This document shows, one piece after another, positions 4,950 to 32,733 of a stretch of 33,756 bases of DNA. The stretch's first letter is position 1. Every line of letters starts with the position of its first letter. The notes below the pieces were generated by a model. The model ran no database searches and had not been told where the DNA came from. It saw nothing but the letters and a program-made list of their open reading frames with translations. The position numbers and the translations under genes were made by a program. Source of the DNA: an uncultured Bacilli bacterium (GTDB lineage Bacteria > Bacillota_I > Bacilli_A > RF39 > UBA660); contig CANQYB010000012.1 in assembly GCA_947627975.1 (NCBI GenBank), positions 1-33,756 of the forward strand, in the 5' to 3' direction.

Positions 4950-5377
4950 CATAATTGAAAAATATTAATATTTAATTTCTTTTTTTATATTAAATTGTAA
5001 TTAAATGTGTATATTTATAAAACAACCATTTAAATTATTTATCTTATTATTAAAAACATCGATAATTAATATAAATTCAATCTTATTTAATTATTTATTA
5101 AAATTTTCAAAAATATTGGTAAATATATATTATTATTCCTCTTTATTAATTTTTATAGATTATAGATAATATTTTATTATAAAAAAATTTTTAATGTTAA
5201 AATGAAAATAATAATTAATATTTTATAAATTAAATTTGTTTTTTTATAAAAAATATAAGGGTATAATTCAAGTTTTAATATATTTAAAATTATGTTATAA
5301 TTTTATAAAATGTAGTTTAAAAAAATTTGTATATTTTTAATATTTAAATTTTTTTAATGTAGTAGGTGATTATAAAA
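4950..5377. other. AT-rich intergenic stretch
   Basis: More than 400 bases of nearly pure A/T with no open frame that looks coding and no stable hairpin. TATAAT-like boxes occur (for example near 5264 and 5294) and one may drive the gene at 5378. Otherwise I see nothing here. Confidence 0.5.
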
Positions 5378-6051
5378 ATGAAAAAAGCTATATTGGGTAT
5401 AGTTTCAAAACATAATAATAAAGATAATATAAGAAATAACATGTATGTAAGAGATGAGATTAAACAGGCTATATTTGATAATGGAGCAGTGGCAATTGGT
5501 ATTTTATTACCCAAAAATGAAAAATTTACGGTTAGTGATAATTGGCAAAATAATTTATCAAAAAAAGAATATGATTCATTAATTACACAGATTAATCTTT
5601 GTGACGGAATAATATTTCAAGGTGGAATTATGAAATGATTGTGGCTAAATATTGTTATGATCATGATATTCCCACATTAGGTATATGCTGTGGGCAAAAC
5701 GTTATGGTTAGAGCATTAGGTGGTACAACTTATGAAATTTCAAATCCCGAAAAACACTATCAAGTGACAAAAAATTATGTTCATAAAATATATATTAATA
5801 AATCTTCTAAATTTTATGACATTATAAAGCAAACAGAAATTAATGTTAATTCAAGACATAAAAAAACAATAGATAGTTTGCCGTTATTAGAAACAACTGC
5901 TATTTGTGAAGATGGTTATGCCGAAGTAGTTGAATCAAAAGAAAAAAAATTTTATATAGGAGTAAGATTTCATCCTGAAAGTTTATATAAAATTGATGAA
6001 AATATGAATAATATATTTAAATATTTTATAGATATTTGTTGTAAAAATTAA
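5378..6051 (+). pseudogene. Class I glutamine-amidotransferase / peptidase C26-like, frameshifted
   Basis: Two consecutive frames encode one protein of about 220 residues. Part 1 (ATG 5378, behind AGGTGAT, to a TGA at 5636-5638) begins MKKAILGIVSKHN and ends at LCDGIIFQGGI, the usual approach to the oxyanion glycine loop. Part 2 (from 5635) has PTLGICCGQN, with the nucleophile Cys in GICxG, and the catalytic His-Glu in RFHPES. In relatives about five residues separate QGG from the 'IVAKYCYDHDIP' helix; here they are missing and the frame changes, which fits loss of 3n+1 bases between short ATGA repeats. The family includes gamma-glutamyl-GABA hydrolase (PuuD-like), which cleaves gamma-glutamyl amide bonds. 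All catalytic residues remain, so the damage may be recent or a sequence error. It precedes an ATP-grasp gene on the same strand. Confidence 0.75.
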
Positions 6052-20399: not shown

Positions 20400-21116
20400 T
20401 TGATTTGGAATCCATGGCATGGATGTCATAAAATAAGTTCAGGATGTTTAAATTGTTATATGTTTGCAAGAGATAGCTTATATGATAAAGATAGCAATTT
20501 TGTAGTTAAAACTAAAGATTTTGATAAAATAATTAAAAAAAAGCGAGACAAAACATATATTGTAAGTAATTACAAAGATTATATTTATACATGTATGACT
20601 TCTGATTTTTTTATTGAAGAAGCTGATTTATGGCGAAATGAAATTTGGCAAATGATTAAAAAAAGATCAGATTTAAATTTTTATATAATTACAAAAAGAA
20701 TAAAAAGATTTTTAAAATGTGTACCTAAGGATTGGAAAGATGGTTATAATAACGTAACAATTTGTGTTACAGTTGAAAATCAAAAAATGGCTGATGAAAG
20801 AATACCAATTTTATTAAAATTACCAATTAAACACAGAGAAGTAATACATGAACCAATGTTAGAAAAAATAAATATTGAAAAGTATTTAGCAACAAATAAA
20901 ATTGATAAAGTAATTTGCGGTGGAGAATCTGGTGAGTTAGCTCGACCATGTAATTACAATTGGATTTTATATACTCGTAATCAGTGTATAAAATACAATG
21001 TTTCTTTTTATTTTAAACAAACTGGAGCAAATTTTATTAAAAATGGCAAAAAATATAGTATTCCTAGAAGTAAACAGTTAAGTCAAGCTAACAAAGCTAA
21101 TTTAAATATATTATAG
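20400..21116 (+). CDS. DUF5131 (phage Gp37/Gp68-type) protein with Cys motif
   Basis: 238 residues from a TTG start at 20400; GAGGTGGGG just upstream and the family start (M-x-WNPWHGC) decide this. Three Cys (9, 16, 19) in WNPWHGCHKISSGCLNCY resemble the cluster motif of radical-SAM-like proteins. Conserved downstream landmarks are ITKRIKRF, CVTVENQ, EPMLEKI and the GGESG loop. The family is found in phages and bacterial chromosomes, and its reaction is not established. The 3' end overlaps that of the minus-strand propeller gene by six bases. It could be phage-derived, but no other phage gene is nearby. Confidence 0.85.
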   Translation: MIWNPWHGCHKISSGCLNCYMFARDSLYDKDSNFVVKTKDFDKIIKKKRDKTYIVSNYKDYIYTCMTSDFFIEEADLWRNEIWQMIKKRSDLNFYIITKRIKRFLKCVPKDWKDGYNNVTICVTVENQKMADERIPILLKLPIKHREVIHEPMLEKINIEKYLATNKIDKVICGGESGELARPCNYNWILYTRNQCIKYNVSFYFKQTGANFIKNGKKYSIPRSKQLSQANKANLNIL

Positions 21117-21988
21117 TATTTTAGCTATTTTTAATAATAATTCTAAATTATTGTAAGATAAATTTTCTAAAGTTATTAAATCATTTAAATTATTATCATT
21201 ATTATTTTTAATATCATTAATTTTGGATTCAATAATATTAAAAATATTATATTCTTTTTCATAAATTTTTTCTAGCAGTTTAAATAATTTGAAATTGTAA
21301 TTTAAATTATCTTTTAATAATAGTTCATATAAAATATTTTTGCTATCTTTGTTTATAATTAATTTTAAAGTATAATCAGAATATATCATTGATATTATTT
21401 TAATATCATCATCTATGTAAAAAGTGTCTATTATATTGCCATTTTCACTAATTTTAGAAATATAAGATGAATTATTTTGAAAAAATGATAAATATTTTTC
21501 ATTTTTAATAATGCAAAATGAAGTGAATTTAAAATTATTACTTATTATTTCTCTTTGAAAATTTTGATAATTAGCTTCAACTTTAATAAAATTACCATCC
21601 TCATCAATAGAATAAACATAAGTATTTGTTATAATATAATATATATTTTTATCTGGATAAAAATATATATCATTAATTTTTTTTAATAAATATTTTGGAA
21701 CTCTTATATCAAAAACTTTAATTATTTCTAAATTTTCATTTAAAATGTAAAATCTATTATAGCTATTTTCAGTTGTAGCTAAAATAGATTTTTTTGTTGA
21801 ATTATAAGTTAAAGTATTAAAAATATATTCAGTAGAAATTTTATTTTCGATTAATAAATTTTCATTATAGCATGAAATAGTTTTATTATTGTTTAAAATT
21901 AAATATTTATGATTTATAAAAATCCCATTTGTAAATTGCGACTCATTATTATTTATTTGAAAGTTTTTTTTTTATTAATTTGAAACAA
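21111..21988 (-). pseudogene. Beta-propeller-like gene, frame broken at a run of ten A
   Basis: On the minus strand a frame is open from the A run to a TAA at 21111-21113, about 285 codons. Only its last 92 codons follow an internal ATG (21389). The natural start is TTG 21988, behind AAAGGAAAG, but it joins the long frame only if the run at 21964-21973 has eleven A instead of ten; with eleven A the gene is 293 codons. The predicted protein consists of repeated beta strands with turns such as YSIDEDGNFIKV and ISENGNIIDTFYIDDD, about 30-45 residues apart, resembling YncE/SMP-30/NHL-like propellers. The C terminus (about 225-290) is helical. No signal peptide. It may be phase-variable, rescued by slippage, or simply dead. 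Confidence 0.6.
21964..21973 (-). repeat. Homopolymer of ten A (T on the plus strand)
   Basis: Lies within codons 6-9 of the propeller gene. One added A restores the frame from the TTG start. Confidence 0.9.
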
Positions 21989-22253
21989 TTAAATCTTTCC
22001 TTTCTTTTTATAATAATATGTAAATTTTAATATTTAATAACTTATATATTTTAAATTATTATTATTTAAAAATAATAACAATAAATAATTAAAATAAAAT
22101 AAACAAAAAGAACAATTATACAGAGAAGTTAATTCTAAAAATAAAAGTATTAAATTATTGTAAAAAATTAATTATAATGTTTTATTTTTTAAATTTGAAA
22201 TTAATTTTTATTTATTATATTTTAATAAAAAACTTTAATAAAATAGTTTTTTA

Positions 22254-31091: not shown

Positions 31092-31985
31092 TCATTGTTC
31101 ATTTTTTATAAAGGCGTGTCTAAGATTATTATTTTTAGTCTTTTCTATATAAAAAACTTTTATTTTTATTTTTGGACTAATAAAAAAATATTCTTTATCA
31201 TCAAAATCAATAAAAGTTGTTTTATTGATTTTTTTTTGGCTCTTTATTTTTTCATAATTTTTATTTTTGTTACTTAATGTTACTTTTCCTATAAAGTATA
31301 ATTTATTATTTATTTTTTTACCTAAAAGAATAATAATTACATTATCTTTTTTTTCTTTTTTATAACCACCTATATAAAAATAACTAGTTTTATAGTTTTT
31401 AATTTTTATCCAGTTTTTTGTTCTTGTATTAGGCTTATATAAACTATTTATTTTTTTAGCTACTATTCCTTCTAATTTTTTTTCCTTAACAAAATTAAAT
31501 AATTCTATGCCATTTGTTAAAAAATAGTTTATTTTAATAAAATTATCAGTATTTGAAAATTTTTCTAAAATTTTTTTCCTTTTTAGAAGGGGCAAATTAG
31601 TTAAATCTTTGTTATTGTAAATTATGTCAAAACAAATAAAAACTACAGGATATTTTTGACTATACATAATTATTTTATTTTTATTTTTTAATCTAAATCG
31701 TTGCTGTAATTTAGAAAAAGATGGACGGTTATTAGCAAATAAAACAATTTCACCATCAAATATGCAAGTATTTTTACTAATATTTTTAATAGATAAAAGT
31801 TCGGGGAAAATATCATTTAAAATTAAGCCGTTTCTACTTTTTATATAAATATTATTTTTATCAATATAAATTAGTGATCTAAAACCATCAAATTTTATTT
31901 CATATAAATAATTATTATTATTAAACGGATTATAAATTTCATCTAATAACATTGGATTAATATTAAAAAAATCCTTATTTTTCAT
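31092..31985 (-). CDS. ligD: ATP-dependent DNA ligase (LigD ligase-domain type)
   Basis: 297 residues. Motif I YEIKFDGFR holds the Lys (31) that is adenylated; motif III FDGEIV, motif IIIa FICFDIIY, motif IV EGIVAKK and motif V WIKIKN follow, and an OB-fold region (about 205-297) completes the catalytic core. It seals DNA breaks with Ku in non-homologous end joining. The polymerase and phosphoesterase domains of large LigD proteins are absent, so this is a ligase-only form. It overlaps the Ku stop by 11 bases, so translation is coupled. C-terminal residues are unusually Lys/Asn-rich, like the genome. Confidence 0.85.
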   Translation of the reverse strand: MKNKDFFNINPMLLDEIYNPFNNNNYLYEIKFDGFRSLIYIDKNNIYIKSRNGLILNDIFPELLSIKNISKNTCIFDGEIVLFANNRPSFSKLQQRFRLKNKNKIIMYSQKYPVVFICFDIIYNNKDLTNLPLLKRKKILEKFSNTDNFIKINYFLTNGIELFNFVKEKKLEGIVAKKINSLYKPNTRTKNWIKIKNYKTSYFYIGGYKKEKKDNVIIILLGKKINNKLYFIGKVTLSNKNKNYEKIKSQKKINKTTFIDFDDKEYFFISPKIKIKVFYIEKTKNNNLRHAFIKNEQ

Positions 31986-32733
31986 TTAGTCCTCTTAATT
32001 TTAATGATTCAGTAAGAGCATCCATTAAATCAGCTACTGATTTTTTCTTTTTTCCTTTATATTCTTTTATTTCTTTACCATTTACTTTTTTTGAAATAGC
32101 ATCTTTTAAACGTGTTTGATATTCATCTTTATATTCTTCAGGTCTAAATTTATCTGTCATAGCATCAATTAATTTTTGAGCCATTTTTAATTCTTTTTCA
32201 GTAAAATCCTTTTTATTTTTTTCTTTTTGCATCTTAATTTCTTCTTCATAATATAAAGTGTTCATAATTATATTTTCATAACCAAATCTTATTACTACAT
32301 AATAAGCTTTATTTCGCATATATGTTTTACCAATTGCTACTTTTCCACTTTTTCTTAAGGCTTCTTTAAATAAATTAAATGCTTTAAAACTCTTATTAGG
32401 GGATAAAGTATAACTTTTATCATAATATACTGGATCTATTTCATTTATGTTTACAAATGCAATAATTTCGATCATTTTATCATTTTCGCTTTTAAGTTTG
32501 TTAAAATCTTCTTCTGTAAATGTAATATAATTATCATTAGAATATTCATATCCTTTTTCTATTTCTGTATTTTTAACTTTTACTTTACAGTGAGGACAAT
32601 ATCGAATATATTCTAATTTTTCTTTACATTTTTTGTGAATCATATTAAAAGTTATATCATTATTTTTAATAGCTGTATTCATAACTACTGGAATATTTAC
32701 AAGGCCAAAAGAAATAGCAGTTTGATAATTCAT
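31975..32733 (-). CDS. ku: Ku-type DNA end-binding protein
   Basis: 252 residues behind GGAGGTAAT. Bacterial Ku forms a ring around broken DNA ends and recruits the ligase. Family signatures are MNYQTAISFGLVNIPV at the N terminus, HKKCKEKLEYIRYCPHC with a Cys pair, the GYEYSNDNYITFTEEDF bridge region, and FNLFKEALRKSGKVAIGK. The C terminus (about 205-252, GKEIKEYKGKKKKSV) is basic, as in other Ku proteins. Length is typical. It heads a two-gene operon with the ligase. The intergenic region to the divergent gene at 32851 holds a plus-strand promoter. Confidence 0.9.
   Translation of the reverse strand: MNYQTAISFGLVNIPVVMNTAIKNNDITFNMIHKKCKEKLEYIRYCPHCKVKVKNTEIEKGYEYSNDNYITFTEEDFNKLKSENDKMIEIIAFVNINEIDPVYYDKSYTLSPNKSFKAFNLFKEALRKSGKVAIGKTYMRNKAYYVVIRFGYENIIMNTLYYEEEIKMQKEKNKKDFTEKELKMAQKLIDAMTDKFRPEEYKDEYQTRLKDAISKKVNGKEIKEYKGKKKKSVADLMDALTESLKLRGLNEK

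Follow-up and report, generated by a model that had tools for sequence, protein, structure and literature searches.

The window analysed here, the 33,756-nucleotide contig CANQYB010000012.1 (assembly GCA_947627975.1) of an uncultured Bacilli bacterium, carries on its minus strand a gene for a propeller-like protein whose start codon and long open frame diverge by one base at a run of ten adenines (A10). In most of its relatives the protein ends in a tail that matches the subunit of a spore fibre, A-ENA. The best explanation, which we hold with confidence slightly above even, is that the genes form a rare, fast-evolving family of propeller-like proteins linked to spore fibres, and that the window copy is a young, possibly leaky pseudogene of it. 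Decay, with possible leakiness, is favoured because this genome lacks the fibre gene and the window copy has an eroded tail.

A long frame one base out of register with its start

The long frame is uninterrupted over 286 codons (coordinates in Table 1), in agreement with an initial annotation that had reported about 285 open codons lacking an in-frame start. Its earliest ATG, GTG or TTG lies at 21389, at codon 195, and would give a product of only 92 amino acids. The frame begins within the A10 run, which forms codons 6-8 plus the initial base of codon 9 in the frame opened by an upstream TTG; that frame closes after 11 codons and is one base out of register with the long one. The annotation had placed a one-base offset at A10, in codons 6-9 behind a TTG with a ribosome binding site, and its coordinates and frame arithmetic were correct. 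The run sets the frame by its length near the start, a feature of phase-variable genes with 5' poly(A) tracts. Translation of the long frame by reinitiation or from a near-cognate start was considered and rejected, as no Shine-Dalgarno-like site was seen before one near the 5' end. Ribosomal frameshifting with a stimulatory hairpin was also rejected; no stable RNA fold was found around the A10 run (z 0.29), and nothing thus points to programmed shifting with a stimulator.

The long frame is real coding sequence, because relatives align along its whole length. A search of 60 relatives found the gene in the window's own genome (G000; 1,064,639 bases in 48 contigs, 93.65% complete) and in one other, G027, and a profile run against 386 genomes from the bacterial family gave matches in 14. 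The propeller gene proper is present in ten of these (G000, G027, G075, G143, G193, G226, G301, G360 with two copies, G366 and G369). The other matches are a remnant in G202, proteins of another make-up that share the tail (G197 and G302) and an unclear case in G061. The window gene has ten intact relatives in nine other genomes, which marks the long frame as a real gene, and the ratio of nonsynonymous to synonymous substitution rates (dN/dS) in six pairs of close relatives, 0.17-0.34, indicates purifying selection on the intact members. The N-terminal, beta-rich part of the window copy is homologous to the relatives along its length, with an identity of about 24-33% in the propeller part. In G001, the sole other species of the genus among the searched genomes, the right-hand neighbours are kept; the gene is absent there and was not found elsewhere in that genome. 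A search of viral contigs found no relative, and a scan of genome contigs returned nothing but the record of G027 (UBA5348). In Pfam and NCBIfam scans no model scored above cut-off for the propeller or for the small neighbouring gene, and the combination of a propeller-like head with an A-ENA tail is in none of the models scanned. The propeller gene of G027 (L004 2732, minus strand, corresponding to about 3953 in L043) has no ATG, GTG or TTG near its start; a perfect AAAGGAGG lies 8 bases upstream of an ATT that appears to be its start codon.

The initial annotation had called the product a propeller. Two AlphaFold models, made from two-sequence alignments, show repeated strands followed by two long helices, and their matches in the PDB are mostly propellers (WD40, BamB, NHL, BtuG and designed ones), with template modelling (TM) scores to the query of 0.2-0.3 and root mean square deviations mostly above 9 Å. 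The call is plausible on these matches; the models are of low confidence (mean predicted local distance difference test scores of 58.8 and 58.1), and a beta-propeller fold is a likely reading rather than a result.

The A-ENA tail and a probable link to sporulation

Small genes lie beside the relatives, and a seven-sequence profile of them matches PDB entry 9ihh over 83 of 89 positions (E 3.2e-18). The title of this entry, 'Ex vivo spore-silk A-ENA fibers', is the source of the name A-ENA used here; one literature search of limited scope for A-ENA or spore silk returned no paper naming either. The propeller protein of G226 matches the same entry through its tail only (about 70 residues, E 4.5e-8), and most relatives carry a C-terminal tail matching A-ENA, those in G193 and G360 being without it. 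Of the nine pieces that went into the tail model, four were propeller-protein tails, which matched by construction; G366, G202, G197 and G302 were outside the model and still matched. The same tail ends other surface-type proteins, namely choice-of-anchor A proteins with serine/threonine-rich repeats in G197 and G302 and a DUF6923-DUF11 protein in G226. The choice-of-anchor A proteins (L047 3150-4448, plus strand; L049 2576-3997, minus strand) combine long serine/threonine repeats with the A-ENA-like tail and adjoin a small A-ENA-like gene, and the DUF6923-DUF11 protein (L046 3193-4554, plus strand), also with the tail, stands in the same row as the small A-ENA and propeller genes of G226.

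Tail and A-ENA gene occur together in the genomes looked at, since seven have both (G027, G143, G226, G301, G369, G075 and G366, the last with a broken small gene) and G193 and G360 have neither. In the window's genome, at the completeness given above, no A-ENA domain was found at E<=1, the same search being positive in G027, G143 and G226. The tail of the window copy aligns with those of the relatives at both ends, lacks about 16 residues in the middle and keeps two predicted helices. Its hhalign probability against the A-ENA profile is 0.3%, compared with 98.3% for the tail of G027. Tail identity between the window copy and its relatives is 0.20-0.25, versus 0.30-0.51 among the others (the near-identical pair G369/G301 apart), and the end branch of the window copy exceeds all others in length (2.13; median 0.77). 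Damage is also found elsewhere in the family: the propeller gene of G202 is reduced to its tail and preceded by another gene, and the small A-ENA gene of G366 has two frame breaks. Gene loss thus recurs in the family.

A CATAnnnTA box, which we take to be the -10 element of sigma-K promoters, lies 24-41 bases before the start of 15 of 19 family genes and of 3 of 87 control genes (non-family genes from these and further loci), with 0.7 expected from shuffled upstream sequence. The 19 are the family genes with a placeable start, the genes of G075, the small genes of G301 and G366 and the remnant in G202 being left out; several are closely related, so that the counts are not independent, and the count considers the CATAnnnTA element alone. 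By a looser count the box occurs before 1 of 23 genes in the window. In the window copy, CATATTATT stands at -32 and departs from the box at one position. Sporulation genes are present in the genomes tested: Spo0A in 9 of 9, SpoIVA in 8 of 9 and SigK above cut-off in 6 of 9, and the window's genome is positive for all three. From the box, the tail matches and these genes, the family looks like a set of mother-cell products for the spore surface, and the host is probably an endospore former with a small genome. The sigma-K consensus is mentioned in PMC517825, PMC3789829 and PMC5025042. Adjacent Ku-like and ATP-dependent DNA ligase-like genes, named by eye, also lie in the window (31092-32733, minus strand), in a 1.06-Mb genome with sporulation genes.

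Decay weighed against slippage, switching and error

The A10 run is the sole A/T run of at least ten in the window. Runs of nine, ten and more number 3, 1 and 0, against 11.6, 5.3 and about 4.2 expected under a first-order Markov model of the window; long runs are thus avoided in the window, and the A10 run is the exception. A/T runs of at least eight number 29, of which 23 lie in listed genes, 22 of these in frames open across the run. The whole genome holds 13 A10 runs, with at least 11 adenines at five further places, one at a contig end. When the flanks of the other 12 A10 runs were read, 10 proved intergenic and 2 lay in genes whose frames stay open, one for a ComEC-like competence protein and one for MutS; three of the 13 are therefore coding, and only in the window gene is the frame broken. 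The run in mutS (L037, G000 contig 17, about 5174-5185) lies near the 3' end, and slippage there could alter the mutation rate. A stretch of 19 adenines at a contig end (G000 contig 26, bases 15-33) probably marks where assembly stopped.

Over the first 200 bases of the 8 genes examined in relatives (G075 and G366 are outside this count), A runs reach a maximum of 5-9 depending on the gene, always in frame and of at most 8 near the start codon. G193 has eight adenines in frame near the start, G143 seven, and G360 shorter or interrupted runs; the run of nine belongs to G027 and lies well away from the start. Most members encode a stretch rich in lysine at the 5' end, where A runs are thus expected, and the ten adenines of the window copy appear to have arisen when an ordinary lysine run grew or slipped.

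On the reading of the window copy as a young pseudogene, the mother cell would make the propeller-like proteins of the family late in sporulation, from the sigma-K-type box, and in most relatives the A-ENA fibre-subunit domain at the C-terminus would attach the propeller, as either anchor or decoration, to the fibre whose gene lies alongside. In the window lineage, with no A-ENA gene and the tail eroded, a one-base change in the length of the lysine-coding run would have put the frame out and left a young pseudogene, from which slippage of polymerase or ribosome on the slippery A10 might still yield a small amount of full product. Several points weigh against this. A frame without any interruption means that any decay is recent: in unconstrained sequence about 10-14 random substitutions, or 1.2-1.7% divergence, should be enough to bring the first stop, which would come sooner with insertions and deletions. 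The propeller part of the window copy is not unusually diverged (identity 0.24-0.33 to relatives, compared with 0.23-0.36 among them, close pairs apart), the tail defect was read from aligned sequences that evolve fast and depends on that alignment, and the long end branch may have causes other than decay. Low guanine-plus-cytosine content, tried as a sign of decay, was discarded, the 14.6% of the window copy comparing with 15.5-23.7% in intact relatives; with intact relatives down to 15.5%, composition offers the reading no help. The initial annotation had taken the lack of further stops as an argument against long neglect. The frame is indeed open, but the argument has a weak hold, given that a stop is expected only after 1.2-1.7% divergence and that the tail is also shortened.

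The gene might instead be functional and rescued by slippage, with RNA polymerase adding or dropping adenines, or the ribosome slipping back one base on A-AAA-AAA, so that a fraction of the product is full length, perhaps as dose control. Runs of A9-A11 slip in bacteria according to PMC1088944 and PMC4256274, Blochmannia genes with a single poly(A) frameshift are described as otherwise intact (PMC3017870), the long frame here is open to its end, and by the argument made in PMC1088944 the depletion of long runs in the window suggests slipperiness in this host. We nevertheless consider rescue unlikely, though worth serious attention: none of 8 relatives examined has a frameshift, the run lacks the stable RNA fold looked for above, and the tail has eroded in a genome that lacks its fibre partner. 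A further candidate is an error of consensus or assembly in the run, the real gene being intact. Homopolymers are the usual site of assembly errors, and the assembly is a draft of 48 contigs. Against it, the 22 of 23 coding runs in open frames argue against systematic homopolymer errors, leaving room for a single one here, and both other coding A10 runs keep their frame; we regard such an error as improbable.

Phase variation, which the initial annotation put forward beside slippage rescue, would have replication slippage reversibly alter the run and switch a spore-surface protein between cells. Part of this stands: both the one-base offset at the run and the gene that follows are genuine, vaa, inlA and swrA have 5' poly(A) switches (PMC524362, PMC2831843), the run lies in codons 6-9 as in such genes, it is the only run of at least ten in the window, and the family is of a surface type. 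The relatives examined, however, have no switch-like run at the start, and no variant in the length of the window run came to light in the one assembly analysed. The relatives' runs are short and in frame, so the window run is not a conserved switch, a candidate we rejected on this evidence, and with one gene broken among 13 A10 runs the genome holds no set of switches of this kind. Phase variation is accordingly rated improbable, marginally less so than an error. In its most far-reaching form, a propeller decorating or anchoring fibres would be turned on and off heritably, one clone making spores with different surfaces; a bacterium of 1 Mb would then hedge its bets, heritably, at the stage in which it lies dormant and travels. 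We give this form very little credence.

A gene frameshifted in an A run is of a known kind in AT-rich bacteria, and the useful result is the family: propeller-like and other surface-type proteins with an A-ENA tail, beside small A-ENA genes, with a sigma-K-type box, in genomes of about 1 Mb. The family gives a concrete guess at what occupies the fibre ends, and the window copy is a natural test of the fate of the tail when the fibre gene is absent. Another broken gene in the window, for a peptidase C26/GATase (5380-6051, plus strand), has a first part ending at 5638 and the rest open in another frame from about 5634; residues appear to be missing between the parts, and there is no homopolymer at the break.

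Table 1. Features of the window gene (minus strand) and of damaged relatives
Feature	Position	Strand
Open frame from 21971, 286 codons and stop TAA (21113-21111); propeller-like, beta-rich, with two-helix tail; without usable in-frame start	21111..21971	-
A10 run at which the TTG frame and the long frame diverge by one base	21964..21973	-
TTG start codon; its frame stops at 21955-21953	21986..21988	-
Shine-Dalgarno-like AAAGGAAAG upstream of the TTG	21995..22003	-
CATATTATT, candidate CATAnnnTA box of the family	22012..22020	-
C-terminal helical tail at the position of the relatives' A-ENA-like domain; about 16 residues shorter and missed by the A-ENA profile	21114..21320	-
Small A-ENA gene of G366 with two breaks, and truncated propeller of its sister G202	L012 1620-2190; L048 about 2700	

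Comparison with known systems

The window gene resembles vaa, inlA and swrA in having its run in the first codons, where a one-base change leaves a very short product; it differs in that length change is shown for those genes (PMC524362, PMC2831843), while the window run is not conserved in relatives and is known here from one assembly. It resembles the Blochmannia genes (PMC3017870) and tssM1 of C. rodentium, in which A11 is reported to slip at about 20% (PMC4256274), in that the frame is shifted once, by one base, within roughly ten adenines and is otherwise open; the window copy differs in being read from sequence alone.

The relatives' small genes match the A-ENA fibre subunit of PDB 9ihh over nearly their full length and the tail of the G226 propeller protein does so over about 70 residues, whereas the window tail is shortened and profile-negative, in a genome without an A-ENA gene. 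A precedent for the family is F-Anchor of Bacillus thuringiensis, described in PMC11952670. That protein differs in fold, with DUF4183 and a collagen stalk where the proteins described here have a propeller-like head with a putative anchoring or decorating function. Like the members of this family, F-Anchor is a separate protein with a C-terminal fibre-subunit domain, encoded beside the gene of its fibre, F-ENA (PMC11952670).
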